Positions 16,219-37,265 of a stretch of 50,663 bases of DNA are shown piece by piece (the first letter of the stretch is position 1; the number at the start of each line of letters is the position of its first letter). The notes beneath the pieces were generated by a model, which ran no database searches, was not told where the DNA came from, and worked only from the letters and a program-made list of their open reading frames with translations. The position numbers and the translations under genes are program-made. Origin of the DNA: Candidatus Angelobacter sp. Gp1-AA117 (GTDB taxonomy: Bacteria > Acidobacteriota > Terriglobia > Terriglobales > Acidobacteriaceae). The DNA is taken from contig QHVI01000032.1 in NCBI GenBank assembly GCA_003223515.1, positions 1 to 50,663 on the forward strand. Direction: 5' to 3'.

Positions 16219-16303
16219 ACAATTGCTTCCTTGGTACTGAACAATTAGGTTTATCCTTAGCAAGAATTCCATCTCTTGTCGTTCTACCGTGAGAGGAGAG
16301 ACC

Positions 16304-16732
16304 ATGTCACTGCGCTTGTTAGGTTGTGCGCTACTATTGATTTCGCTGGCCGCATTTAAGGTACAGGCCACACGTCCCACGCAGCCCGAAGTGAAAGCCG
16401 AGATGCCCAAATGGGAGTACAGGGTAACGAGGCTGGAGGGAGGACAATGTGCCGCCAACCTGAATCCCACGCTGGCTTCTTCTGGAAGCGATGGCTGGGA
16501 ATTGGTAACTTTCGAGCGCCTTCTGCTACCCGCACCCGCATTCCCTACTGATGCACAAGGCTCGCTGCTGATCAAGCCCGCCGCAACCGGCGCCGGACGG
16601 GAAAATAATCCTCCGACCGCTGATTCGTTTAGTGGGACCATCCAGATGAAGATGCCCGTGCCGCAACCGCAACCACGGCAAACCATAGCATGCCAACTGA
16701 TCTTCAAACGTCCGCTGCCGCCACAGCGATAA
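16304..16732 (+). CDS. Small secreted protein with DUF4177-like domain
   Basis: This 142-residue protein has a signal peptide (MSLRLLGCALLLISLAAFKVQA). The segment WEYRVTRLEG followed by LNPTLASSGSDGWELVTFER matches the DUF4177 pattern: 'W-E-Y-x-V', then an 'L-N-x-L-x-x-x-G-x-x-G-W-E-L-V' core. The tail is Pro/Gln-rich. I chose the ATG at 16304 because GAGGAGAG sits 4-11 bp upstream; a GTG at 16289 lies in front of that site. Two cysteines (in GGQCAAN and TIACQLIF) could form a disulfide after export. The function of the family is unknown. It stands alone between a tandem repeat and the prenyl synthase. Confidence 0.72.
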   Translation: MSLRLLGCALLLISLAAFKVQATRPTQPEVKAEMPKWEYRVTRLEGGQCAANLNPTLASSGSDGWELVTFERLLLPAPAFPTDAQGSLLIKPAATGAGRENNPPTADSFSGTIQMKMPVPQPQPRQTIACQLIFKRPLPPQR

Positions 16733-16892
16733 CAAGACTTCTTAGCCGCTGATCACGGTGAAGATCAACCATAGAAGATGGTGATGATGGATTTGAACAG
16801 ACGAAGTTGCAGGCTTTTGATTAGCTCTCAATCTCAGAAGGGTCAAGCAAGGGTCAAGCTAAGAGCTAAAAGCTAGGTACTAAGGGCTGTTT

Positions 16893-16946
16893 CACTGGCA
16901 GAAACATGCCCCGTCCCTTTTGAAGAAGGCATGTTCGTTGCCAGTG
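16893..16946. repeat. Long inverted repeat (hairpin) downstream of ispA
   Basis: Arms CACTGGCAGAAACATGCC (16893-16910) and GGCATGTTCGTTGCCAGTG (16928-16946) pair over 16 of about 18 bases with a 17-nt spacer. It lies 67-120 bp past the ispA stop. No T-run follows on either strand, so it may be a structured RNA end, a protein-binding site or a remnant of a small repeat element rather than a standard terminator. Confidence 0.6.
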
Positions 16947-17012
16947 ATCATTGGACGACGCGTCCGTACAATAAGAAGAGAGTTCCCAGGGGCAAAAAAG
17001 TATCAAATGTTA

Positions 17013-17894
17013 TTATTTTTTTCGCTGTACCAGAAAATGAGCGAGGTCTTTGAGGGTTTCGGCGCGCTGGCCGAATGAATCCAATGAGTTACAGCCGGAA
17101 ATGACCAGGGCATCGGCCCGGTTCAGCGACTCTTCAATCCCAAACAGCGCTGGATAAGTAGCTTTTTCTGAAGCAGTATCTTTTCCGGCGGTCTTGCCAA
17201 GCTGCTCCGATGACTGGGTGACATCGAGCACGTCATCCACGATCTGGAATGCCAGCCCCACCGAGCGGCCAAAATCACGCAGCCGCTGAATTTCTGCATG
17301 AGATCCGCCGGCGTAAATTCCTCCGGTCACCAAACTGGCGGTAATCAGTGCCCCGGTCTTGGAACGATGAATGTACTCGAGCGTGGCCGCATCCGGTTTC
17401 TGCCGCTCGGCCTCCAGGTCCTTGACCTGGCCTCCAATCATGCCGTCTACCGTTCCGGTGCCGCGCGCGATCTCTTCAATGATCCTTACCCGCGCTTCTG
17501 CCGGACACTTCAGGCGAGCCAGCACTTCATAGGCTTGTGTCTGCAAGGCATCACCGGCCATGATGGCCAGGGCCTCGCCGAAAACGACGTGGCAGGTGGG
17601 CTTGCCGCGGCGCAACTCATCGTTATCGAGCGCCGGAAGGTCGTCATGGATCAGCGAATAAGTATGCAGCATCTCCAGCGCGCTGCCCAGCTCTTCAATA
17701 CCGGGCGGCAGCTTGCCGGAAACCATGCGCGCGGCCTCCATGCACAGGATGGGCCGCAGCCGTTTGCCGCCGGCAAAGACGCTGTGCCGCATCGCCTGAT
17801 GAATGGATTCCGGCCTCTGCGTAGCCGGAGGTAGAAGTTTTTCCAGGGCCTGGTCAATGACGTGCTGGCCCTGCTCCAAAGTCTCTTTGAGCAT
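17013..17894 (-). CDS. ispA: Polyprenyl diphosphate synthase, IspA type (farnesyl/geranylgeranyl diphosphate synthase)
   Basis: This 293-residue cytoplasmic enzyme joins isopentenyl diphosphate to allylic diphosphates. The first aspartate-rich motif is DDLPALDND at 84-92, the D-D-x4-D form typical of bacterial farnesyl diphosphate synthases, preceded by GGKRLRP at 42-48. The second is FQIVDDVLDVT near 221. The residues before the first motif are HTYSLIH, with aromatic Y79 at the fifth position upstream of the motif. That position limits chain length, so C15 or C20 products are likely. It is monocistronic, transcribed away from the cysteine-rich peptide genes. It feeds quinone, undecaprenyl and isoprenoid synthesis. 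Confidence 0.93.
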   Translation of the reverse strand: MLKETLEQGQHVIDQALEKLLPPATQRPESIHQAMRHSVFAGGKRLRPILCMEAARMVSGKLPPGIEELGSALEMLHTYSLIHDDLPALDNDELRRGKPTCHVVFGEALAIMAGDALQTQAYEVLARLKCPAEARVRIIEEIARGTGTVDGMIGGQVKDLEAERQKPDAATLEYIHRSKTGALITASLVTGGIYAGGSHAEIQRLRDFGRSVGLAFQIVDDVLDVTQSSEQLGKTAGKDTASEKATYPALFGIEESLNRADALVISGCNSLDSFGQRAETLKDLAHFLVQRKK

Positions 17895-18085
17895 GAAAAT
17901 CTGAGTATACCAGCGTGCAGGAATTCAAACAGCTATGGAAAAAATGAAAGAAAAATTGAGGAGGGAGTTTAGCAGCGGCGTGCCAATCCTGAATCCGTGG
18001 CAGATTTAAAGAGTGACCTTGAAGGCATTTAAGTTCTCCAGCCGGAACATGCCTGATGTTCCAACCGCTCAAGGCTCAAAGAGAC
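17895..18085. other. Divergent intergenic region between ispA and the cysteine-rich peptide operon
   Basis: No gene is visible. A 62-codon frame (18013-18201) has no domain and no signal peptide and is not called. The 340-bp divergent region must hold both promoters; two palindromes at its right side are listed separately. Confidence 0.4.
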
Positions 18086-18141
18086 TCCCGGATCGGGAAA
18101 CTGAAAGCATGATTCGCTTTGCGACATTTCCCAAAATGGGA
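18086..18141. promoter_or_regulatory. Pair of TCCC-N5-GGGA palindromes upstream of the peptide operon
   Basis: TCCC-GGATC-GGGA occupies 18086-18098, and TCCC-AAAAT-GGGA occupies 18129-18141 within the longer TTCCCA-AAA-TGGGAA (18128-18142). Their centres are 43 bp apart, about four helical turns, and they end about 93 bp before the first peptide start. This looks like a paired operator for a dimeric regulator; no known regulator can be named. Confidence 0.45.
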
Positions 18142-18234
18142 AGGGAAATCATAAAAATTTGTTGTAGCCGTCGTTACTGGAAGCAAAGTCCCTTAAGATG
18201 ACACTGCTTCAGCGTGTATTTTCAAAGGAGATTT

Positions 18235-18459
18235 ATGAACCTGAGAAAACTTTCTCTCAAACTGGCAGTGCTCACCATGGGAGTTGTGGTCCTTTCTTAC
18301 ATGGCTATTCCTGCAAAAGCGACGTTGTTCTGCGTTCCTGCATTTTGCCAAACCAGCACCAGCGTTGGACAATGTGGCGATGGAAGGTATGAAGATTGCG
18401 CTGCATGTTATGGTGATGATGGTTCTATCGAATATTCCGCCGATTGTTCTAGAAACTGA
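18235..18459 (+). CDS. Small secreted six-cysteine protein (copy 1)
   Basis: This is a 74-residue precursor with a clear signal peptide: basic MNLRKLSLK, a hydrophobic core, and an AKA cleavage site after residue 29. The 45-residue mature part has six cysteines spaced C-x4-C-x8-C-x7-C-x2-C-x12-C, enough for three disulfides, and shares FC-x-TSTS-x-G-x-CG and CYG-x-DGS with the next gene. The ATG at 18235 follows AAAGGAG at 18224-18230. It heads an apparent operon with copy 2 (11 bp gap) and a thioredoxin-fold protein. I do not recognise the family. Possible roles include a structural surface peptide, a toxin/bacteriocin or a redox-active peptide. Confidence 0.75.
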   Translation: MNLRKLSLKLAVLTMGVVVLSYMAIPAKATLFCVPAFCQTSTSVGQCGDGRYEDCAACYGDDGSIEYSADCSRN

Positions 18460-18470
18460 GGGGTTCAACC

Positions 18471-18701
18471 ATGAGATCCAGAAGAGTCGTTCTCAAAATC
18501 GCTGCGCTTCTGCTGGATTTCACCGTGCTTCACGCAGCGTCCACACCGGCAGCGGCCACAATCTGCCGTTCCTTTGCTGTATTTTGCAGAACCAGCACCA
18601 GCGGCGGACATTGCGGCTACCAGCCCGGAGAGGATTGTAATACCTGCTATGGCATCGACGGTTCCGTAAAGTCCGGCACCAGTTGTCCAGCCATTGAATG
18701 A
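18471..18701 (+). CDS. Small secreted six-cysteine protein (copy 2, tandem paralogue)
   Basis: This 76-residue precursor has signal peptide MRSRRVVLKIAALLLDF... ending in PAAA. The mature part of about 47 residues has six cysteines spaced C-x6-C-x8-C-x7-C-x2-C-x12-C. The last four intervals equal those of copy 1, and the shared blocks are FC-R/Q-TSTS, CG, ED-C-x2-CYG and DGS. GAGGGG lies 8 bp before the ATG. Signal peptides and the loops between cysteines differ strongly while the cysteine frame is kept, as expected of an old duplication under structural selection. Function unknown; it is co-oriented with the redox gene downstream. Confidence 0.75.
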   Translation: MRSRRVVLKIAALLLDFTVLHAASTPAAATICRSFAVFCRTSTSGGHCGYQPGEDCNTCYGIDGSVKSGTSCPAIE

Positions 18702-18711
18702 TTTTCGGTTG

Positions 18712-18742
18712 CAGGCTGCCCCTTACAGAAGCCGGCAGCCTG
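18712..18742 (+). terminator. Hairpin between the peptide genes and the thioredoxin-like gene
   Basis: CAGGCTGCC (18712-18720) and GGCAGCCTG (18734-18742) form a perfect 9-bp stem with a 13-nt loop, followed by TTCTTAT. It could be a partial terminator that makes the peptide mRNA more abundant than the full operon mRNA. Confidence 0.5.
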
Positions 18743-18797
18743 TTCTTATCTGGAGATCACCGGCACATTCTTTCATCAGGAAGTCAAAAAGATAATT

Positions 18798-19322
18798 ATG
18801 GAAAACACATCGCCTAAACCGCTCGTCAGATGGATCGAGACCGCCGCGAATGTCGCCATCATCATTGTGGCTGTGGCTATTGTGGCGGTCTTTGCAAAGA
18901 ACCACTTCTACCCCAGCCAGCAGCCAAGGCCTTCTATTTCCGCTGGAGCCAAACTCAACTCCCAGCCGGTGGACTGGGCAGCCAATGGAAAGAATGTTGT
19001 CCTGGTGCTTTCTACCACCTGCCATTTCTGTAAAGAGAGCAGTGGGTTTTACCAGCGCCTTACCCAGGATTGCCGCAACGCCCACACGCGCACCGTGGCA
19101 TTCTTCCCCCAGACTCCGGAAGAAGCACAGAATTACCTGAAATCTGAAAGCGTGCAGGTGGATCAGGTCATCCGCGCCGACTTCAAAAACCTGGAGATCG
19201 GAGGCACGCCAACCCTGCTGCTGGTGGATGGGAGCGGTATTGTGAAGAAAGTCTGGCTGGGAAAGCTGGACGATCAGAAGGAAAGAGAAGTGCTGGCGCA
19301 AAGCTGTTCTGCGAGTTCCTGA
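18798..19322 (+). CDS. Membrane-anchored thioredoxin-fold protein (CHFC active site)
   Basis: This 174-residue protein has one N-terminal transmembrane helix (about residues 16-33) and an extracytoplasmic thioredoxin-like domain. The CxxC motif is C75-H-F-C78 after strand NVVLVLSTT, and the cis-proline loop is GGTPTLLLVDGSG near 143. This is the layout of TlpA/ResA/MauD-type thiol oxidoreductases, which reduce or shuffle disulfides in the periplasm. CHFC is not the usual CPxC. Two further cysteines lie in TQDCRN and QSCSASS. It lies 96 bp after two six-cysteine secreted proteins on the same strand, making them plausible substrates. Electron donor partners (DsbD/CcdA) are not visible nearby. 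Confidence 0.82.
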   Translation: MENTSPKPLVRWIETAANVAIIIVAVAIVAVFAKNHFYPSQQPRPSISAGAKLNSQPVDWAANGKNVVLVLSTTCHFCKESSGFYQRLTQDCRNAHTRTVAFFPQTPEEAQNYLKSESVQVDQVIRADFKNLEIGGTPTLLLVDGSGIVKKVWLGKLDDQKEREVLAQSCSASS

Positions 19323-19394
19323 CGCAAGCAACAGAAGAGATTTGGATGTGGGTCACCGATTCTACGCCTATTATCCGGGTTTCTGGAGCGTCTT

Positions 19395-20918
19395 TTACTT
19401 GCTCTCGTTGAACTCTATCCAGCCATCGCGATAGTTGATGGTGATTTTCATGCGGTTGAGCGTTGTGATACCGATCATGCCGGAGATTTCCGTCCCGAGA
19501 TTGGCGCTGATGGAGCTCAGACTAGACGTGAACAAATCCTGTGCCGGCTGCTCGGTTGGGGAAAACTGCAGAACCACACGTTCGGCCAGCGTAGACGAGC
19601 CCACACCGCTCATACCGGCAAGCTCTTTCTTCAAACCGTGCGCCTTGCCGATCTCGGCTGCCATTCTCTGCGAGAGGATGCTGGAGTTGGAGCCGGTATC
19701 GAGCACAAACAATCCCATCGCCTTATGATCTATCCGGGTATTCACCACGGGCAGATGACCAAAGCTGAACATCTGCGTAGGGCTGTTGCTGCCGGGTGGG
19801 AAGCTATGCACCTCCGGGCCGGAAGCACCATCCGTGGGAGCAGGCAATGGAGCCACTATGAGCCGCTGGCGGGGGAAGTCGAAAGTGACCAGATTACGGC
19901 TGAAGAATGAAGTGCCGGTCAGACCGTCAGTGCCTTCCAGAAATCTCTGTTCACTCACATGGACGATGCAGTCATGAAATTCGATATCGCCGATCGTGAC
20001 TTTATCCACCCATGCCAGATAGCTCTTCGTCGCTTTGCCTTCGCCGGTGCCTTCCTGCGCCTGCTCCGAGAGCTTGCGCGCGCCAATCTTGTTCGCTAAT
20101 TTCCTGCTGATGGTGAGCCAGGAGGCGCCTGTATCCAGCCACAGTTTTGCTGGTGTGCCGTTCAGGTTGATTGCGACGCTCCATCCCAAAGTCTTTCCGG
20201 GCCCCGGGATGATAGGCTCCAGCTTCAACTCGCTGTGCGGTATGTCTTTGCTTTGTATCCAGATATCGTGTCCGGCGATAGCGCGAACAAAGTCCAGATA
20301 TTCACGCTTACGCCGCTCTTCCTCGGGCGCAAAATGAAATTCAGCCACATAAGCTTCAAGGTTCCTGACGTTCTCCGGGTACGGCAGCCTGATTGCCCAC
20401 TCGTAAAGAATGTCGCCATCTTCTGCATCAAGTTCACGGGCTTTAGCGAAAGCATCTTTTGCCGGGCCGGTTTTAGAAACAATGGTATAGATCATACCGA
20501 TGCCCAGCCAAGCGCGGGCACACCTGGAATCCAGCTTGCTGGCTGATCTGTACTCGCTCTCGGCCTCAGAGAACAGGCCTTTGCGAAAATAGACATCGCC
20601 GCGCAGGGCGTGAGCCAGGGCTGATTGAGGTAGAGCAGCCAGAGCTTCTGCCGAGCTTTGATCGGCAAGCTCAACCTCATCTGCCTTGAGATAGCTTTGC
20701 ACCAGACCCGCATAGGCTGAAGATGAAGTTTTATCTTTTTCGACAATAGCTTTATAGGCGACTGCGGCTTCCTGGAATTTGCCCTGCTTGAAGAGCGATC
20801 GCGCAGCCGGAAGAGAAGCGGCAGGCGTTTGAGCAGAAGCAGCGCCCAGCGCAAGGCCCAATACCAGCAGAAAGAACATTGAAGACGGTCTTACATGAGG
20901 CGCAAAATCGTCTTTCAA
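19395..20918 (-). CDS. Secreted TPR protein with two retropepsin-like aspartic protease motifs
   Basis: This protein of about 507 residues has a signal peptide near MFFLLVLGLALGAASAQ (14-30) and TPR helices over about 31-175. Two aspartyl protease-like halves follow: LWLDTGASWLTI with D262-T-G, and FVLDTGSNSSIL with D407-T-G. Each half ends with a hydrophobic-G motif (GLTGTSFFSRNLVTFDF and GMIGITTLNRMKITINY). Retropepsin-like domains normally act as dimers with one DTG each; two in one chain give a pepsin-like bilobal layout. The TTG at 20918 follows the upstream TAA directly; an ATG at 20879 is an alternative start. It is an operon partner and paralogue of the next gene. Likely periplasmic or outer-surface proteolysis. 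Confidence 0.83.
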   Translation of the reverse strand: MKDDFAPHVRPSSMFFLLVLGLALGAASAQTPAASLPAARSLFKQGKFQEAAVAYKAIVEKDKTSSSAYAGLVQSYLKADEVELADQSSAEALAALPQSALAHALRGDVYFRKGLFSEAESEYRSASKLDSRCARAWLGIGMIYTIVSKTGPAKDAFAKARELDAEDGDILYEWAIRLPYPENVRNLEAYVAEFHFAPEEERRKREYLDFVRAIAGHDIWIQSKDIPHSELKLEPIIPGPGKTLGWSVAINLNGTPAKLWLDTGASWLTISRKLANKIGARKLSEQAQEGTGEGKATKSYLAWVDKVTIGDIEFHDCIVHVSEQRFLEGTDGLTGTSFFSRNLVTFDFPRQRLIVAPLPAPTDGASGPEVHSFPPGSNSPTQMFSFGHLPVVNTRIDHKAMGLFVLDTGSNSSILSQRMAAEIGKAHGLKKELAGMSGVGSSTLAERVVLQFSPTEQPAQDLFTSSLSSISANLGTEISGMIGITTLNRMKITINYRDGWIEFNESK

Positions 20919-22556
20919 TTAGCGTCCAATCGTCCTGATTTCGTACGGCTCGAGCTTGACCAGGCCATCACGGTAATCAATGGTCATCTTCATCTGTACA
21001 AGGGTAGTAATGCCGATGAGTCCGGCAATCTCTGTGCCGCCCCCCAGAGATCTATGATCGAAAGAGATGATGTCAGTGCTTTCGACGTGTACCCCGGCAA
21101 AATGGAAATACACCTTGTCTCCGGAAAAGATCTTACTCACTTTGCCGCTCACCCCTTTGACATAACCCTCTTCATAACTCACGTTTGTAATTTTTTTGGC
21201 TAGTTCGTTCGAGATGGTGCTGGAGCTCGCGCCGGTATCCAGGACGAATAGTCCCGTTGCGTTTTTAGTGGCTGTGCCAAGCACTGTGGGTGCCACAAGG
21301 TGATCACCGAACATATATACTTTGGCGAAAGACTGCATCTCAGGCGCAACATAGCGGTCCAGGGCTTCGCCGTCTTCCCCGGTTGCCGCCGGGTTCCGGG
21401 GAAGGGGAGCCAGCAGAGCTTTCTGTTCGCGGAAGTCAAGGGTCACGAGGAAGTCCGAAAACACATCAGTTCCGATCAGTCCGGCTTCCTCGCCAATGTC
21501 GTTCCTGGATGAGACCTCAACAATACCATCTTTAAATTCAAGGTCGCCGATCTTGATCTTGTCTATCCACGCATAGTAAGACTTGGTGATGCCTTCTCCC
21601 ACTCCGCGAAAGAATGTATCTGCAATTTTGACTGCCCCAACCTTTTCGGCCAGCTTATTACCTATAGTGATTCCTGGTGCTCCAGTGTCAAGGAGAAGGG
21701 TTGCGCTGGCTTTGTCATTAAACTTTACCTGGAGCGCAAAGCCTTTGGCGCGGGACATTGCGCCTCCCTCATTCCCTTTGCTGATGCTTATGGCAGCCAG
21801 TTCGCGGCCATAAGGCACCATTTTCAGTTGTATGGGCCTGACACCACCCACAACCACCCAGGGCTTCTTTTCCGCCTCAGCTTTCAGGAGCTTTTCCGTA
21901 TTGGGAAGGTCTGTATCATGATCTTCAGAATCAGTCGACGCCATTTCATCGCCGAGATGCTTATCATTCAGCTTCTTGTACTCTTCATACCGTTGCACGC
22001 GTGGCAAGCTATCCAGCCATGCCGAGGTAATCTCACGGTCTGAAGGGTCGCTTTGATGCGCTCTAGTGAAAGAATCTTTCGCGTGCTTGTACAGGGAGAG
22101 CATGTTATAGAGCTTTCCCATGCCATAGAGTCCACGCGCCGAACCGGCATCTGTCTGCAACGCTGCCTTGTATTCCGCCTCCGCGCCCGCCATGTCCCCG
22201 ATGCGGAAATTCACATCGCCAAAGGTGGCGTGTACAAGTGCCGACGAAGGCACTGCCTGTACCGCTTTTTTGCCTGCCTCCACAGCATTGTCAAAATCCC
22301 TGGCCCGCAGATAGCTGCGCATCAGGCCCAAATGGGCCGGGACAGATTTGGGATCTTTTTCAATGATTGCCTTAAAGGCTGCCGCGGCATCCGGGAACTG
22401 TCTGCTCTTTAAGAGCGAATTGGCCAAGTCGAGCTGGTCAACCATGGGATTGGCTGGCGCCGCTGGGTTCGATGTGGCCTTGGAGTTATCGGCTGTTACA
22501 GTCTGGGCATACAGAGCTGTGGAAAGCAGGAAGGAAAGCAAAATCCTCGAAAACAT
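20919..22556 (-). CDS. Secreted TPR protein with two retropepsin-like aspartic protease motifs (paralogue)
   Basis: This protein of about 545 residues has a signal peptide MFSRILLSFLLSTALYAQ, so I chose the ATG at 22556 rather than 22616, which adds 20 non-signal residues. TPR helices (about 37-185 in the mature numbering) are followed by an acidic linker and two aspartyl lobes: LLLDTGAPGITI and FVLDTGASSSTI, each with an intact DTG. Lobe ends are GLIGTDVFSDFLVTLDF and GLIGITTLVQMKMTIDY. It aligns along its whole length with the downstream gene and abuts it (TAA then TTG), so the pair arose by tandem duplication. Substrates may be surface proteins, possibly the cysteine-rich peptides encoded nearby; that link is inference only. 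Confidence 0.83.
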   Translation of the reverse strand: MFSRILLSFLLSTALYAQTVTADNSKATSNPAAPANPMVDQLDLANSLLKSRQFPDAAAAFKAIIEKDPKSVPAHLGLMRSYLRARDFDNAVEAGKKAVQAVPSSALVHATFGDVNFRIGDMAGAEAEYKAALQTDAGSARGLYGMGKLYNMLSLYKHAKDSFTRAHQSDPSDREITSAWLDSLPRVQRYEEYKKLNDKHLGDEMASTDSEDHDTDLPNTEKLLKAEAEKKPWVVVGGVRPIQLKMVPYGRELAAISISKGNEGGAMSRAKGFALQVKFNDKASATLLLDTGAPGITIGNKLAEKVGAVKIADTFFRGVGEGITKSYYAWIDKIKIGDLEFKDGIVEVSSRNDIGEEAGLIGTDVFSDFLVTLDFREQKALLAPLPRNPAATGEDGEALDRYVAPEMQSFAKVYMFGDHLVAPTVLGTATKNATGLFVLDTGASSSTISNELAKKITNVSYEEGYVKGVSGKVSKIFSGDKVYFHFAGVHVESTDIISFDHRSLGGGTEIAGLIGITTLVQMKMTIDYRDGLVKLEPYEIRTIGR

Positions 22557-22653
22557 GCCCAAACTATACACCAGAGTAGGCTGGATTCGGTATAGGAAAG
22601 AGGCACCATAGGACACGGCTGAATACCATGCGGCCCTAAGGTATAGCCCGGAG

Positions 22654-22680
22654 GGGCACAGCCATCAGACGGCTGTGCCC
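22654..22680 (-). terminator. Strong hairpin after the sigma-factor operon
   Basis: GGGCACAGCC and GGCTGTGCCC form a perfect 10-bp stem with a 7-nt loop, 17 bp beyond the stop of the secreted-protein gene. The T-tract is weak, but position and stability suit an end-of-operon structure. Confidence 0.55.
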
Positions 22681-22696
22681 ATTACTTTCCCGGCAG

Positions 22697-23296
22697 CTAT
22701 TCAAACTTTGTAGCTGTTACTTCCACCTGCATACGCTTCTTACTGTTCACATCATCGAGACTGGCAACCATGGCGGGTTTGCCGGGCGTGAGCACCGGGT
22801 GGACTGTCAAACTGGTATTGCGCACAATAGGTTGATTGAGGCCGCCCTGATTCTGGCTCTGTTCCGGCAAGGCAAAACTGCTCACATTGATGTCAATGAG
22901 AGCCTGGATCTTGCCCGGCTCCCATTCACGCAACTGGCAGCGGATATCCAGCCCTACATCCAGGTATGTAAACTGCTTATCTCCCCCTGATGTGGCTGTT
23001 GTAATGGGTACCCGCGTGCCGATCTTGAGAGTGCCGCGCTCACCCTGAACCATTGCCACCATGGTGTAGTCACGCTGGTTGATGCGCTTGCCGTCTTCCA
23101 GTTCATAGATTACGAAGGCCAGCTTGTAGGCGGGTGTGGGAGCGTCTCTTTTCGGCTGCTCCTGCGCGCTCCGGTTTGAGTCTTGCGAAGGCAATACTGC
23201 AGCGTCTTTCTTCGCAATTTCCGTTTTCTTTGCGTCCTGCGCCGCCAGAGATATGGTGAGGGCCAGGACGAATAGTATTGGTATGAGTGATTTCAT
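22697..23296 (-). CDS. Secreted protein of unknown function in a sigma/anti-sigma operon
   Basis: This 199-residue protein has signal peptide MKSLIPILFVLALTISLAAQ and a Lys/Gln-rich linker to about residue 50. A beta-rich domain follows with YKLAFVIYELEDGKRINQRD, GTLKIGTRVPITT, and LDVGLDIRCQLREW. The pattern 'G-T-R-V-P-I' followed by 'Y-x-D-V-G-L-D-I' recalls the beta strands of secretin-like domains, but it is too short to be a secretin. It is 8 bp downstream of the anti-sigma-like gene and is probably transcribed with it. It may be an exported target or signal partner of the ECF system. No family name can be given. Confidence 0.65.
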   Translation of the reverse strand: MKSLIPILFVLALTISLAAQDAKKTEIAKKDAAVLPSQDSNRSAQEQPKRDAPTPAYKLAFVIYELEDGKRINQRDYTMVAMVQGERGTLKIGTRVPITTATSGGDKQFTYLDVGLDIRCQLREWEPGKIQALIDINVSSFALPEQSQNQGGLNQPIVRNTSLTVHPVLTPGKPAMVASLDDVNSKKRMQVEVTATKFE

Positions 23297-23304
23297 TTTT
23301 TCTC

Positions 23305-23898
23305 CTATCGAGTGCTATTGGAACGCTGTATAACGGGTTGGATTTCGGGAACGAGTTGCTCCTCCGGAGTTTCTTCCGCAGCCGGCCTGTCAGGACGGCT
23401 CTGGGCAATGATTTCCTGCTGTGGTGCACCTGCCAGATATCCCAGCAGCAGCCTCTCCTGATCTGAAGGAGGCGCGGGTGTAGGGAAGACATCCCGGCGC
23501 ACTTCCTCACGGACCGCGCTCACGACCACCCGCTGTGCTTGCCGCGATGGACTGTGTTTTCGCTCCGGTGGCTCTTCCGCAATTCGTTGATGCTCAGCAG
23601 GCGGATTCTTCAGCGGGATCACCGATGGCTGCGGCGTGTTCGCAATCGTGGGGGAACCTGGAACCTTCCGCGCACTGTGGTTCATCATCATTAGGGCCGC
23701 AACGATCGCGATAGCCGCGGCTGCTCCCGCCCACACCCATATTTGTTGCCAGCCTGGGGACTTCTGTTCGCCGGCCTGCGCCCTGACCGTGGCCAGGATG
23801 CGTGTTTCCAGTCCGGGACGCGGCTGCGCGTCAGAGTATCGGGAGAGCAGGGAATCGAGCAGTTGGTCGAGTTGTTTTTCGTTATCCTGTTCAGCCAT
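23305..23898 (-). CDS. Single-pass membrane protein, candidate anti-sigma factor
   Basis: This 197-residue protein has a cytoplasmic helix-rich N-terminus (QLDQLLDSLLSRYSDAQPRP), one transmembrane segment (about 50-70, WVWAGAAAAIAIVAALMMM) and a long Pro/Glu/Arg-rich outer region. Its start overlaps the sigma factor stop by 8 bp, the usual arrangement for an anti-sigma factor. It lacks the zinc-binding H-x3-C-x2-C of ZAS proteins, so it would bind sigma by another helix bundle. The extracytoplasmic part has no recognisable domain. The role is inferred from topology and position. Confidence 0.65.
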   Translation of the reverse strand: MAEQDNEKQLDQLLDSLLSRYSDAQPRPGLETRILATVRAQAGEQKSPGWQQIWVWAGAAAAIAIVAALMMMNHSARKVPGSPTIANTPQPSVIPLKNPPAEHQRIAEEPPERKHSPSRQAQRVVVSAVREEVRRDVFPTPAPPSDQERLLLGYLAGAPQQEIIAQSRPDRPAAEETPEEQLVPEIQPVIQRSNSTR

Positions 23899-24475
23899 GT
23901 TTTGCCTCCAGCAGCGAGGAAAGTTTTTCCTTGAGCAGTTTGCGGGCGCGCATCAACCGCGTGCGCACCGAGTTTTCAGGAATATTGAGCATCCCGGCGA
24001 TCTCCACGGAATTCAACTCCTGCACGGTGGAAAGCTGCAGCGTATGCCGCAGCTCTTCAGGTAAACTGCCAATTAATTTCTCCAGCACCTGCTGAAGCTC
24101 TTTTCCCGCAAGTAATTCATCGAGTGATGCGCCGCGATCGGGCAGATGCTCCAGCAATTCGCGCGTCTCATCGTCCACAGAGACCGTGTTCCGGGAGGAA
24201 CGCCGGTCAAGAGCTGCCGTCCAGATGATACGCGCCAGCCAGGTCTTGGGATTGCGCACCTGCTGAAGATCCTTGCCATACTTGAGCACCCGCAGAAAAC
24301 ATTCCTGCACGGCATCTTCAGCGTCATGGTGGTTGCGCAGTACGGAATAAGCGATGCGAAAGACCATCAAGGTATGCTGAGCCACCAGGGCTTCTACGGC
24401 TTCCAGTGGCGTCTCAGCTTTGCTGGCCTTGATATTCTCCAGAATCACCTCTCCGACCATGACTTGTCCGGCCAT
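23891..24475 (-). CDS. RNA polymerase ECF sigma factor (sigma-70 family)
   Basis: This 194-residue ECF sigma factor has region 2 with VFRIAYSVLRNHHDAEDAVQ near 38-57 and FLRVLKYG, and region 4 with LPEELRHTLQLSTVQELNSV then IAGMLNIPENSVRTRLMRAR near 155-174 as the helix-turn-helix. The start ATG at 24475 follows AGGAAGG. It heads an operon with a membrane anti-sigma-like protein (8 bp overlap) and a secreted protein. The promoter region holds a GAAC-like and a GTCT-like element that would fit autoregulation. The signal sensed is unknown; an envelope signal is likely because the partner spans the membrane. Confidence 0.9.
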   Translation of the reverse strand: MAGQVMVGEVILENIKASKAETPLEAVEALVAQHTLMVFRIAYSVLRNHHDAEDAVQECFLRVLKYGKDLQQVRNPKTWLARIIWTAALDRRSSRNTVSVDDETRELLEHLPDRGASLDELLAGKELQQVLEKLIGSLPEELRHTLQLSTVQELNSVEIAGMLNIPENSVRTRLMRARKLLKEKLSSLLEAKHG

Positions 24476-24492
24476 TCTGCCTTCCTATAGAG

Positions 24493-24521
24493 AAAGACAT
24501 CCACAGAATGGTAAGTGTTCT
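24493..24521 (-). promoter_or_regulatory. Candidate ECF-type promoter upstream of the sigma factor gene
   Basis: On the minus strand AGAAC (24521-24517) is followed after 18 bp by GTCTTT (24498-24493), 17 bp before the start codon. Many ECF sigma factors recognise GAAC in the -35 region and GTC near -10, so this fits autoregulation. Confidence 0.4.
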
Positions 24522-24536
24522 GGTATTTTGCAAGAA

Positions 24537-24730
24537 AAGCACTCAGCCGTCAGCACTCAGCATTCAGCCCTTGATCATCTTTGCCGACCTCAAATGGCAA
24601 TGGGAGCAGATACGACCTCCGGATTAACCGCAGAGGGCGCAAAGGACGCAGAGGAAGAAAAGAAAGAAAAATCAAGAGTTTGGCCCAAGACACATTTACC
24701 CATTTACCAAATTACCCATTTACCAAATCC
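24537..24730. repeat. Cluster of intergenic repeats
   Basis: Three short repeat types lie side by side. A CACTCAGC/CAGCACTCAG run is at 24539-24570. ACCGCAGAGGGCGCAAAGGA and GAGGAAGAAAAGAAAG are at 24626-24670. ACCCATTTACCAAAT is written twice at about 24697-24729. Related forms recur at 27711-27990, 30839-30945 and 38938-38970. Confidence 0.6.
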
Positions 24731-24754
24731 AGTTGAGGGTCGGGCGGCTGAGTG

Positions 24755-26794
24755 CTATTTCGCCAGAACGGCGGCTGCAGCGCTTACTGGGGCAGATATA
24801 GGCAGTTCCAGCACCACGCGTGCCCCCCGGGGTTCTATGTTGAAGGCGTGAATGTCCCCGCCGTGCTCTTTCACGATGCCATAGCAGATGCTGAGTCCAA
24901 GGCCCGTGCCTTTGCCTACCGGCTTGGTGGTGTAGAACGGATCAAAGGCGCGGTTTACATCAGCGAATCCGGAACCGGTATCTTCAAAGCGGACTACGAT
25001 GCGTTCTCCATGGCGCAGGGCTTCAATGCGTAGGCGTTTAGGCGCCAGGTATTCCATGGCATCGATGGAATTGTTGAGCAGGTTCAGCAGAATCTGCTTG
25101 AACTGATCTTCATCGAGCGCCACTGGAGGAAGTTCAGGCTCAATCTGGAGCTGCACGTCCACGTCATTATTGCGGATGTGGTATTCGCGCAGGGCAAGCA
25201 CTTCCTGAACCAGAACTTCCAGGTTCGCCGATTTCTTTTCCAGGCTGTTCTGGCGCGCGAAACGAAGCAGGTTCTCGATAATGCGCCTCATCCGCTGCGC
25301 TTCGCGGCCCAGTTTTTCCAGCTTCTGGCGTGCAGGAGCATCAGTGATCTCATCGCCCAGCAATTCGGAATAACCAACAATGGAAGCCAGGGGATTGTTC
25401 AACTCGTGGGCGACGCCGGCCACCAGTTGTCCGATGGCGGCCAGCTTTTCAGAGCGCACGAGTTGCCGGTGCAGCCCGGCGTTATCGATGGTCACAGCCA
25501 GGTCGCCGCCCAGCAGTTCGATCTTGGATGTTTCTTCGGCATTGATTCTTTCGACATCCCGCGGGCGTGAAAGCGAGATGCATCCGACGTAAGCGCCCCG
25601 GGTGGACTGTAACGGCACGATCAGACGGCAGCCCTCTTCCCAGTGAGGATTGGGCCGGATTTCTTCCGTGCTCTCGGGCATCACGAACCTCTGCACCTGT
25701 TCACGGCTCAGAAGATAGGAATTCTGGCCAATTTTCACGCCAATCCGGCACAGTTCAGAGATATCTTCGAGCTTCCACTGTGCTGATTCCCTGCGGATGA
25801 AACTGGTGAGCTTTTCGGAGAGGCCACTGTATCCTGCCAGGTAAAGCTTGCGGTCATCGGTGCCCAGCAAAATAGCTACGTGCTGGAAATTGCTGGTTCC
25901 GGCAATGGCCTGTGCAATTTCAGGGCAGAGCGAATTTACTTCCACGCCGGTGAGAAGCCGCGAGGTTACGCTGGCGAATTTCTGAAGCTGGGCATTGAGC
26001 TTGTGCTCACGCAGGCTGGCCGCTTCCGACATTGCCGACTTATCTTCCAGCAGGGTCAGAATCATGCCAAAAGCCACGAAGAATTTTGGCGTGTTCCAGA
26101 GAGCTTCTGGGACTTGAAGTTTGGGCCACAAGATATACACGAGCTGGCCTAATGGAAACACCGCTCCCCAAAGAAGGAAGCCTCCGGCGGTGGTAATCAC
26201 GCCGGGCGACCAGCGGCGGTAGCGCAGCCAGAAAAGCAGCCCGGGAAGTGCGAATCCAATCGTCAAGATTGTGAGAAAACCAATGTTGAAGTCGCTACAC
26301 CATGCCCTGTAAATGGACCACATGCCTGTCGCGGTGGTTATGGGCATCCAAACCCAGGTAGCACCTCGGATTTTTCCGTGATAGCGGATGGTGAGTACCG
26401 GAGCCGCAACGAAAATGATTACAAGGCAGGCAATATAGATGGCCCGGTAAGGCCAGTAAAAAGAGTAGCTAACGGTATAGATCAACACCGGCAGGGCAGT
26501 CAGGGCAAGCAATGCCCAGATACGGCGCTTCTGCTCCACAAATGAGGTAAGCGAAGCAATAAAGATGACGGCCGAAAGCTGGAGCGATCCGAAGTTGATG
26601 GCATAGAGAAGGTTCTCAAGATTGCCCTGGCGAGGCTCAAAAACATTCACCAGGAAGTGAATGAAAATCAGGGTCCAGGCTGCCGTCCAGAGCTTCAGGC
26701 GGGTGGAATTTACGTGCCGCCGCAATGCGAGAAAGATTCCCACCAGCACTGCGAGAACCAGAATTGTAGGCAGCTTTTCGAGCAGAGAGGCCAT
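24755..26794 (-). CDS. Membrane sensor histidine kinase with GAF domain
   Basis: This 679-residue protein has about seven hydrophobic segments in residues 8-235, then a GAF-like domain (about 260-425), then a kinase core. The H-box is AHELNNPLASIVGYSEL with phospho-acceptor H463. The N-box is ILLNLLNNSIDAM near 568, the G1 box EDTGSGF near 604, and the G2 box GKGTGLGLSICYGIVKEHGG near 628. HELNNPL and N-box spacing place it in the NtrB/HPK4 type of kinases. No response regulator is adjacent, so it is an orphan kinase here. The 7TM-plus-GAF input suggests it combines a membrane signal with a small ligand. A 16-bp palindrome lies about 45 bp upstream. Confidence 0.9.
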   Translation of the reverse strand: MASLLEKLPTILVLAVLVGIFLALRRHVNSTRLKLWTAAWTLIFIHFLVNVFEPRQGNLENLLYAINFGSLQLSAVIFIASLTSFVEQKRRIWALLALTALPVLIYTVSYSFYWPYRAIYIACLVIIFVAAPVLTIRYHGKIRGATWVWMPITTATGMWSIYRAWCSDFNIGFLTILTIGFALPGLLFWLRYRRWSPGVITTAGGFLLWGAVFPLGQLVYILWPKLQVPEALWNTPKFFVAFGMILTLLEDKSAMSEAASLREHKLNAQLQKFASVTSRLLTGVEVNSLCPEIAQAIAGTSNFQHVAILLGTDDRKLYLAGYSGLSEKLTSFIRRESAQWKLEDISELCRIGVKIGQNSYLLSREQVQRFVMPESTEEIRPNPHWEEGCRLIVPLQSTRGAYVGCISLSRPRDVERINAEETSKIELLGGDLAVTIDNAGLHRQLVRSEKLAAIGQLVAGVAHELNNPLASIVGYSELLGDEITDAPARQKLEKLGREAQRMRRIIENLLRFARQNSLEKKSANLEVLVQEVLALREYHIRNNDVDVQLQIEPELPPVALDEDQFKQILLNLLNNSIDAMEYLAPKRLRIEALRHGERIVVRFEDTGSGFADVNRAFDPFYTTKPVGKGTGLGLSICYGIVKEHGGDIHAFNIEPRGARVVLELPISAPVSAAAAVLAK

Positions 26795-36401: not shown

Positions 36402-37265
36402 TTAGTGGACGTGCACTTCAAGATTCTTGCCGCCCTGAATCTCCACTCGTAATTTCCTATTGTCCGGTTTCGTTTTGCCTTCGGCTGATTGGTAAGTGAG
36501 CGTGTACTCGTCGCGAATCATGGTGGCCACGGCCTTACACGCTTTGTCGAGTTCATCAGGATTTTTTGCGTAATACAAGCTTCCACCGCCTGGGGCCGTT
36601 ATTTTCTCCAGAGCGCTCCGGGCGTGGGAACTGAATCCATTGCGGTTGGGCACTCCGATCGCATAAATGGTTATGTCCTTGTGACTCTGGATCGATTGCA
36701 GGAGAATTTCAAGAGAGCTGCGGCTGCTATTGTCTTCACCATCGGTCACGATCAACAAGACTTTTCTGCTATTGCGTCCATGTCTCGCCAAATAATCCAC
36801 AGACGCAATCAGGGTATCGTAAACCGATGAAGGCCCATAAGGCTTTGAACGCTCCAGTTCCTTGTACAGGAGAGATAAGTCACTGGTCATCTGCTGATCC
36901 ACGTAAGGGTTGTTATTGAAATGTACAAGGAATGCCTCGTTCTGGGAATTACTACCCTTCAGGAATTCCGACAACGCATGTATCACTGCATCGCGCTTCT
37001 CCTTCATCGAACCTGAATCATCTACCAGAAGCCCGAGAGAAATGGGCGCATCCTCGCGGACAACAGAAACGACTTGTTGCGGCTTTTCGTCTTCATAGAC
37101 CAGGAAGTCAGTGGCTTTCAGGTCTGGGACTGGTTTCTGGCCGCGGCCGGATATGCTCACGCCGATCTTGACTGTCTCACCAGCTTGCTGGACTACGACT
37201 GTCGCTGGAAGAGTTCCGTATGCAAACAACAACAGAATTGGAAGAACCGCTGTTCTGATTTTCAT
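36402..37265 (-). CDS. Secreted von Willebrand factor A (VWA) domain protein
   Basis: This 287-residue protein has signal peptide MKIRTAVLPILLLFAYGTLP. An N-terminal strand region (LKATDFLVYEDEKPQQVV) is followed by a VWA domain with an intact metal-ion site: D82-x-S84-x-S86 in LLVDDSGSMKEKRD, a Thr in SSVYDTLIASVDYL near 142, and an Asp in LIVTDGEDNSSRSS near 169. This 'VWFA-related' type, with the 'F-x-V-x-E-D-x-x-P-Q-x-V' lead, is common in Acidobacteria. It probably binds protein ligands outside the membrane. It is monocistronic, with a long upstream gene-free region. Confidence 0.85.
   Translation of the reverse strand: MKIRTAVLPILLLFAYGTLPATVVVQQAGETVKIGVSISGRGQKPVPDLKATDFLVYEDEKPQQVVSVVREDAPISLGLLVDDSGSMKEKRDAVIHALSEFLKGSNSQNEAFLVHFNNNPYVDQQMTSDLSLLYKELERSKPYGPSSVYDTLIASVDYLARHGRNSRKVLLIVTDGEDNSSRSSLEILLQSIQSHKDITIYAIGVPNRNGFSSHARSALEKITAPGGGSLYYAKNPDELDKACKAVATMIRDEYTLTYQSAEGKTKPDNRKLRVEIQGGKNLEVHVH

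Follow-up and report, generated by a model that had tools for sequence, protein, structure and literature searches.

The stretch of DNA analysed here, called the window below, comprises 50,663 nucleotides of Candidatus Angelobacter sp. Gp1-AA117 (contig QHVI01000032.1; contig C166 of the genome that we label G000). Between 18.2 and 19.3 kb it carries two tandem genes for small six-cysteine proteins, P1 and P2, followed on the same strand, 96 bases after the end of P2, by the gene of a thioredoxin-like protein (Table 1). These genes probably form an operon-like row that encodes two exported, disulfide-stabilised mini-proteins and a membrane-anchored thioredoxin dedicated to them. The pairing of such a thioredoxin with an exported cysteine-rich open reading frame (ORF), whose product is called cargo below, recurs across the phylum Acidobacteriota. 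Two genes for tetratricopeptide repeat (TPR) proteins with retropepsin-like domains lie next to the row, both convergent with the thioredoxin gene. An earlier reading of the window, made from the sequence only, had joined peptides, redox protein and proteases into one candidate system; the link between peptides and redox protein was supported and could be generalised to the whole phylum, and the link to the proteases was not borne out.

Table 1. Features of the locus at 18,086–22,556 of the window
Feature	Position	Strand	Basis
Shine-Dalgarno-like AAAGGAG preceding P1	18224–18230	+	Direct sequence reading
P1, six-cysteine mini-protein precursor, predicted exported, 74 aa	18235–18459 (mature part about 18322–18456)	+	ORF, homologues, pN<pS
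P2, tandem paralogue, six-cysteine precursor, 76 aa	18471–18701 (mature part about 18558–18698)	+	ORF, similarity to P1, pN<pS
Perfect 9-bp inverted repeat (hairpin) between peptide genes and thioredoxin gene	18712–18742	+	Repeat search and folding
Thioredoxin-fold protein, predicted membrane anchor, 174 aa, CHFC, GTPT	18798–19322	+	ORF, alignment, AlphaFold2, Foldseek
Terminator-like stem-loop after thioredoxin gene, possible operon end	19374–19387	+	Consensus scan only
TPR protein with two retropepsin-like domains, outside the module	19395–20918	−	Pfam and synteny with G041
Paralogue of the preceding TPR protein, likewise with two retropepsin-like domains, outside the module	20919–22556	−	Pfam and synteny with G041

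The mature P1 shows the frame C-x4-C-x8-C-x7-C-x2-C-x12-C and the mature P2 the frame C-x6-C-x8-C-x7-C-x2-C-x12-C, with 42–43% identity between them, and the six cysteines were the sole invariant columns in an alignment of eight mature homologues. The tandem mini-protein ORFs of the sequence-only reading were confirmed. The proportion of non-synonymous changes (pN) was below that of synonymous ones (pS) in 15 out of 15 pairs of six homologues, at synonymous sites near saturation, which supports coding of the P1/P2 type. A signal peptide, also claimed at first, is clearly predicted for P1, whose N-terminus is signal-peptide-like and which has a good ribosome-binding site, and less so for P2, as an Asp lies within the hydrophobic core of its signal peptide and both detectors used missed it. 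The AlphaFold2 model of the peptide is small and beta-rich (predicted local distance difference test score, pLDDT, of 85.2), with no structural match in the PDB (best E 1.7). Searches with P1 and P2 in Pfam and NCBIfam, with ten other cargos in Pfam and with eight of these in NCBIfam gave nothing above cut-off, the weak matches below it being DUF3551, a fluorinase model, Myticin-prepro, Conotoxin_I2, DUF7107 and EF-hand.

The thioredoxin-like protein was confirmed as a same-strand CHFC protein with a predicted anchor, since its AlphaFold2 model (pLDDT 92.1) consists of a single N-terminal helix at residues 8–37, predicted to span the membrane, and a thioredoxin domain. C75, C78 and P138 are invariant across 21 aligned sequences, so that the protein has the thioredoxin fold with a CxxC and a cis-Pro motif (GTPT) that characterises the ResA/CcmG/TlpA family. 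Its closest solved structures in Foldseek were ResA, CcmG, StoA and relatives, at 12–20% identity over the 50 listed. The protein itself stays under every curated cut-off with which it was compared (PF08534 Redoxin, 16.3 vs 26.6 bits; NF002854 ResA, 12.2 vs 170); with 29.8 bits, a relative (L075) exceeds that of PF08534; no MauD model appeared among its four NCBIfam matches at E ≤ 1. The order sample contained homologues in 24 of its 249 genomes (E ≤ 1e-4), the phylum sample in 18 of 396 (E ≤ 1e-15) and the class sample in 33 of 399 (E ≤ 1e-20), with overlap between the three samples. In G771, a genome of the class set, the thioredoxin model matched six times at E ≤ 1e-20, and a cysteine-rich neighbour accompanied five of these matches. 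All bacterial and archaeal species records were scanned as far as one short pattern can reach, and the ten named matches were all from Acidobacteriota; neither the viral collection, with the patterns used, nor a peptide scan of the genome_contigs collection yielded relatives (thioredoxin or peptide in the former, peptide in the latter). The tree of 44 thioredoxin rows has poor resolution, with stars on 5 of its 41 inner branches, and therefore we make no claim on inheritance from it.

The association of this thioredoxin with cargo was quantified with a detector of predicted exported ORFs of up to 420 residues that have at least four Cys, a Cys content of 4.5% or more and a distance of no more than 1 kb from the thioredoxin gene. 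Same-strand neighbours were detected at 20/22 loci of the order, 9/17 further loci of the phylum and 2/4 loci from named metagenome-assembled genomes, and opposite-strand ones at 3/22, 2/17 and 1/4, respectively. By comparison, 30 control loci with ordinary redoxins of the same order, which were the best-scoring loci returned, not all of them anchored and with ORFs picked by a script rule, gave 1/30 on the same strand and 2/30 on the opposite one. Anchors placed away from the thioredoxin in the same loci gave 6/63 for codon-screened genes and 14/135 for any long ORF (Fisher's test for 20/22, 3.6e-11 against 1/30 and 3.1e-12 against 6/63). Because both the idea and the detector had been derived from the order and phylum sets, a forecast was written beforehand for 31 new class loci, namely that 60% or more of them would have a neighbour and that 85% or more of the cargos would have an even number of Cys. 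The first part was borne out, with 20/31 loci (65%; Fisher's test against 1/30, 2.1e-7; no locus removed), plus 1/31 on the opposite strand. Duplicated loci were dropped (L101–L103, L105, L122, L124, L125, L127, L130, L131, L181–L185, L194, L196). Among the matches listed by a literature search, titles and abstract openings contained no account of this pairing in Acidobacteriota.

When one intervening gene was allowed, a rule adopted post hoc, the class set rose to 29/31, as nine of its 11 misses have a cysteine-rich gene one gene further downstream: five whole by the detector (L220, L221, L222, L225, L226), one recognised by eye, a 313-residue protein with 12 Cys (L223), and three with the leader and the cysteine-rich part in different frames as sequenced (L219, L224, L228). 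Of the two misses in the order set, L094 has a second thioredoxin copy (L041) between the cargo and the counted gene, and L081, near a contig end, has a six-Cys ORF of 53 residues in which no leader was detected. Among the misses of the phylum set, L106 has a six-Cys ORF on the opposite strand, L108 a 22-Cys gene past one intervening gene, and L115 a 14-Cys stretch with its leader in another frame, and no adjacent cysteine-rich ORF was found at L111, L114, L119, L120 and L121. Regarding the named genomes, a 12-Cys ORF lies on the opposite strand at L128 and none was found at L129. The eight weakest thioredoxin matches of the order (E 6.1e-7 to 5e-5; L036–L038, L040–L044) were excluded from the counts; inspected by eye among neighbours with two or more Cys, they showed no convincing adjacent cargo except L041, the second thioredoxin beside L034/L094, with a cysteine-rich exported ORF upstream.

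The cargo is of several types, including the six-Cys type of the window, CX3C-repeat and CC-containing proteins, and larger proteins with 12–44 Cys. Large cargos at L078, L085, L108, L219, L223, L224 and L228 show by eye a shared calcium-binding-like C-terminal domain (LALDRNGNGxID...ELFG or a variant) after a variable cysteine-rich part. For three pairs of loci with thioredoxins of 0.52–0.62 identity, the identity of the cargo at non-Cys positions was 0.15–0.19, and its mean over the 16 pairs with thioredoxin identity above 0.45 was 0.15. The number of Cys in the mature part was even in 42 of 44 cargos vs 28 of 42 other detector hits, among which the four-Cys threshold itself favours even numbers (Fisher's test, 5.6e-4). 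These 44 consist of 38 cargos, including P1, P2, two solitary window-type homologues and two linked to a second thioredoxin, TrxB, described below, with one overlapping ORF at L080 removed, and six hand-picked ones (two on the opposite strand, one distant, and three linked to TrxB), the cargo of L108 and L115 not being included. As for the two odd cargos, one lies beside a broken thioredoxin gene and the other is a larger protein on a 3.8-kb contig. Judged by these comparisons, the partner mini-proteins are hypervariable, with conserved and mostly even-numbered cysteines. A leader motif P-x-[KR]-[AV] was present in 11/38 cargos vs 1/52 background genes; as it was chosen after seeing the data, we do not rely on it. 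Two further gene arrangements were observed around the cargo. Thioredoxin, a protein of about 240–360 residues and a large cysteine-rich protein follow each other at L078, L108/L234, L198, L219–L226 and L228, the middle protein of L078 having no match in Pfam or NCBIfam, and a secreted VWFA protein directly follows the cysteine-rich gene at five loci of family f22 (L107, L109, L110, L113, L115; TIGR03436 for L109, the others by reading).

Homologues of the window peptides revealed exchanges of partner. In genome G081, of the same genus, two window-type peptides were found, one solitary beside ribosomal-protein genes and the other with genes for two anchored proteins after it on the same strand, one of these proteins being the CPWC thioredoxin TrxB; the same row of peptide, anchored protein and TrxB occurs in G168, also of this genus. 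At these loci (L013, G081:C26; L096, G168:C14) the row looks operon-like, with an anchored protein lacking CxxC in the middle, which had no family match in Pfam or NCBIfam at L096, and CPWC or CAYC in TrxB. In both genomes the nearest relatives of the window thioredoxin pair with unrelated cysteine-rich cargo and the window-type peptides pair with TrxB, which indicates that cargo and thioredoxin reassort. In addition, a different family of the order yielded two members of the peptide family, located upstream of TrxB; since they were found through TrxB, they were not counted for the link between peptide and thioredoxin. Among six newly opened TrxB loci, three had an exported cysteine-rich ORF upstream. 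A third paralogue in the window genome itself (L006 8640–8870, G000:C45), without a thioredoxin, lies amid terminase- and phage-like genes by reading, which suggests that it may be carried by a prophage. At the five weak peptide matches that were opened (L009, L010, L097–L099), no six-Cys exported ORF was present at the match.

The hairpin claimed between the peptide genes and the redox gene is present, with perfect arms, and its folding is modest (z = −2.09) and it was not among the terminator-like sites of the terminator scan. It could act as an attenuator that lowers thioredoxin output relative to peptide; in the sublancin operon a terminator or hairpin is described between the peptide gene sunA and the downstream sunT (PMC4336743). 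The paired palindrome proposed upstream also exists (18086–18100 and 18127–18141, 73% complementary to each other). A role as operator was considered for it and rejected, as the fold of 18095–18165, which holds the second palindrome and part of the first, gave no support (z = −0.51). In 17950–19450, five terminator-like sites were found vs 1.4 in shuffles, one of them being the first palindrome in its minus-strand reading (18099–18085). One promoter-like site was found vs 1.2 in shuffles; no Rfam match exceeded the gathering score, and no tRNA was found.

From the anatomy of the locus and its recurrence we infer that the precursors would cross the inner membrane by Sec and lose their leader, that the anchored thioredoxin domain, outside the membrane, would act on the emerging Cys of the cargo, and that the folded mini-protein would be released, its site of action being either the envelope or the cell exterior. 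The thioredoxin would most likely proofread or isomerise disulfides, with electrons from CcdA/DsbD and with oxidation provided by the general system, a role that we favour narrowly over direct oxidation. As the cargo changes fast, a role in conflict or recognition is suggested, for example the inhibition of growth of competitors, although this last step is a guess. A broader reading, which we consider less likely than not, is that Acidobacteriota possess a so far undescribed and phylum-wide class of Sec-dependent, hypervariable and disulfide-locked effectors, toxin-like and serving competition or recognition, each with its own membrane-tethered thioredoxin, and that cargo and thioredoxin reassort as cassettes.

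Several results weigh against this interpretation. The detector was initially restricted to ORFs of up to 140 residues with a strict signal peptide, which gave 16/22 loci of the order and 3/17 other loci of the phylum, and it was widened afterwards because the phylum loci showed larger cysteine-rich proteins and looser leaders; having been tuned on both sets, it meets its only clean test in the class set. By the strict rule, 51/74 thioredoxin loci of all sets have cargo and 23/74 have none within 1 kb. Peptide homologues lacking a thioredoxin neighbour, which the sequence-only reading had named as evidence against itself, appeared at two of the five loci from the peptide search, both solitary, vs three with a same-strand thioredoxin-fold gene downstream. 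Not all cargo is hypervariable, given that L107 and L109, with thioredoxins 45% identical, keep 0.32 non-Cys identity in their cargo. Even Cys numbers in the class set reached 17/23 (74%), below the forecast: two of the six odd entries are the same gene, which becomes even once its signal peptide is left out of the count, one belongs to a frame in L214 that looks broken, and L202, L213 and L215 are odd as they stand. Overall, parity appears to fit paired disulfides better than free thiols, though the fit is less clean than in the first set. With respect to redox direction, ResA/CcmG-like proteins are usually reductants, and VKOR, present in 6/8 genomes tested, was not found in that of the window; DsbB was not searched for.

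These points bear in part on another explanation, in which the thioredoxin would keep the cysteines of an exported protein reduced for the binding of a metal or cofactor, as TlpA, ResA and CcmG do in oxidase and cytochrome c assembly. The structural matches to ResA, CcmG and relatives, the presence of CcdA/DsbD_TM in 8/8 genomes tested, the CC and CxxC clusters of some cargo and the odd Cys numbers in part of the class set all agree with it. Even so, we regard it as unlikely, because 42 of the 44 cargos have even Cys numbers, their variable Cys spacing suits disulfides better, and the window family has no invariant column besides its six Cys. It is improbable that the thioredoxin is a house-keeping redoxin beside independent or spurious cysteine-rich ORFs: the 23 loci without cargo, the solitary peptides and the fact that the small ORFs are unannotated here are in line with this, whereas the frequencies of 20/22 and 20/31 vs 1/30 in the controls, the strand bias (20 same vs 3 opposite in 22 loci), the pN<pS of the window-type peptides and the patchy distribution of the thioredoxin in the order and phylum samples argue against it.

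Concerning the adjacent proteases, the sequence-only reading was right about two paralogous TPR proteins with two retropepsin-like stretches each, as both score above cut-off for PF13975/PF13650 in two stretches and for TPR models. In the window they begin a block (19395–26794) that continues with a secreted protein, an anti-sigma-like gene, an extracytoplasmic function (ECF) sigma factor and a histidine kinase, and the same order, with the tandem pair, is found in G041 (L177), of the same genus, where blastp established the homology of each gene except the anti-sigma-like one. No peptide or thioredoxin was found within the 18 kb fetched from G041, nor at three further homologous protease-like loci (L178–L180). 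Likewise, no DTG protein was found at 42 other thioredoxin loci, with a pattern that recovers three of the window's four DTG motifs and with 17 loci spanning only about 1.5 kb on each side. As the block is shared with G041 without peptides and thioredoxin, the proposed link fails, and by this synteny the pair belongs to the sigma-factor block. That the proteases mature or degrade the peptides as the third part of one system is thus very improbable, since it has in its favour their physical proximity, in the window only, against the opposite strand of their genes, the loci without peptides or thioredoxin and the 42 without a DTG protein. The block may itself be a separate unit for envelope sensing. 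Further along the window, a minus-strand ORF with a VWFA-like metal ion-dependent adhesion site (MIDAS) motif lies at 36402–37265.

A conserved enzyme beside changing exported cysteine-rich partners offers a handle on small proteins that are missed by annotation and cannot be linked by sequence search, and the thioredoxin model is directly usable as mining bait. The results indicate that this phylum, abundant in soil, holds a pool of disulfide-rich mini-proteins that is still unexplored, and they raise the testable question of whether cargo-specific disulfide enzymes are kept beside the general Dsb system.

Among known systems, dedicated thiol-disulfide oxidoreductases adjoin disulfide peptides in pediocin, thermophilin and sublancin (PMC4336743, PMC4919988), and co-expression of PedC raised the potency of pediocin (PMC4919988). 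The window shares with PedC, BlpG and CoaC a CXXC thioredoxin-fold gene, here on the same strand, beside a small exported cysteine peptide, which in those bacteriocin operons is a disulfide peptide (PMC4919988). It differs from them in the Sec-type leader, in the transmembrane-anchored ResA-like enzyme and in the phylum. Neither an ATP-binding cassette (ABC) transporter with a leader peptidase nor, by family models only, an immunity gene was recognised among the ten window proteins scanned (16289–24475). Immunity proteins are short and diverse.

With sublancin, whose operon sunA-sunT-bdbA-sunS-bdbB in SP-beta includes oxidoreductase genes (PMC4336743), the window has in common an oxidoreductase gene in the row and a hairpin after the peptide genes, and it differs in that no SunT-like transporter and no immunity gene were recognised among the same ten proteins. 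A further likeness, by reading, lies in the glycosyltransferase-like proteins of two distant loci. Downstream of the cargo at L090 (G107:C26) and L112 (G314:C9) stand proteins that are related to each other (31% over 200 residues) and have glycosyltransferase-2-like motifs but no family match, and L090 also carries a signal peptidase I and a thioredoxin fused to a rhodanese domain, so that by gene content these loci look like a fuller peptide-modification cluster. Among the decRiPPter candidates of Streptomyces, mauE occurs in three families and mauD in one of these, and the predicted precursor of each has at least eight Cys (PMC7794033); those candidates are also unproven, and they differ from the window, where no MauE/DoxX or MauD match was found among the ten proteins. 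Finally, the window thioredoxin resembles ResA, CcmG (DsbE), StoA and TlpA in its predicted fold and N-terminal anchor, and it differs from them by its low identity, its scores below the curated cut-offs and its link to hypervariable exported cysteine-rich proteins. In conclusion, we consider the module of the window a variant distinct from the PedC and sublancin accessory enzymes, on account of a transporter gene not being found, the phylum, the Sec-type leader, the anchored ResA-like enzyme and the variety of the cargo.

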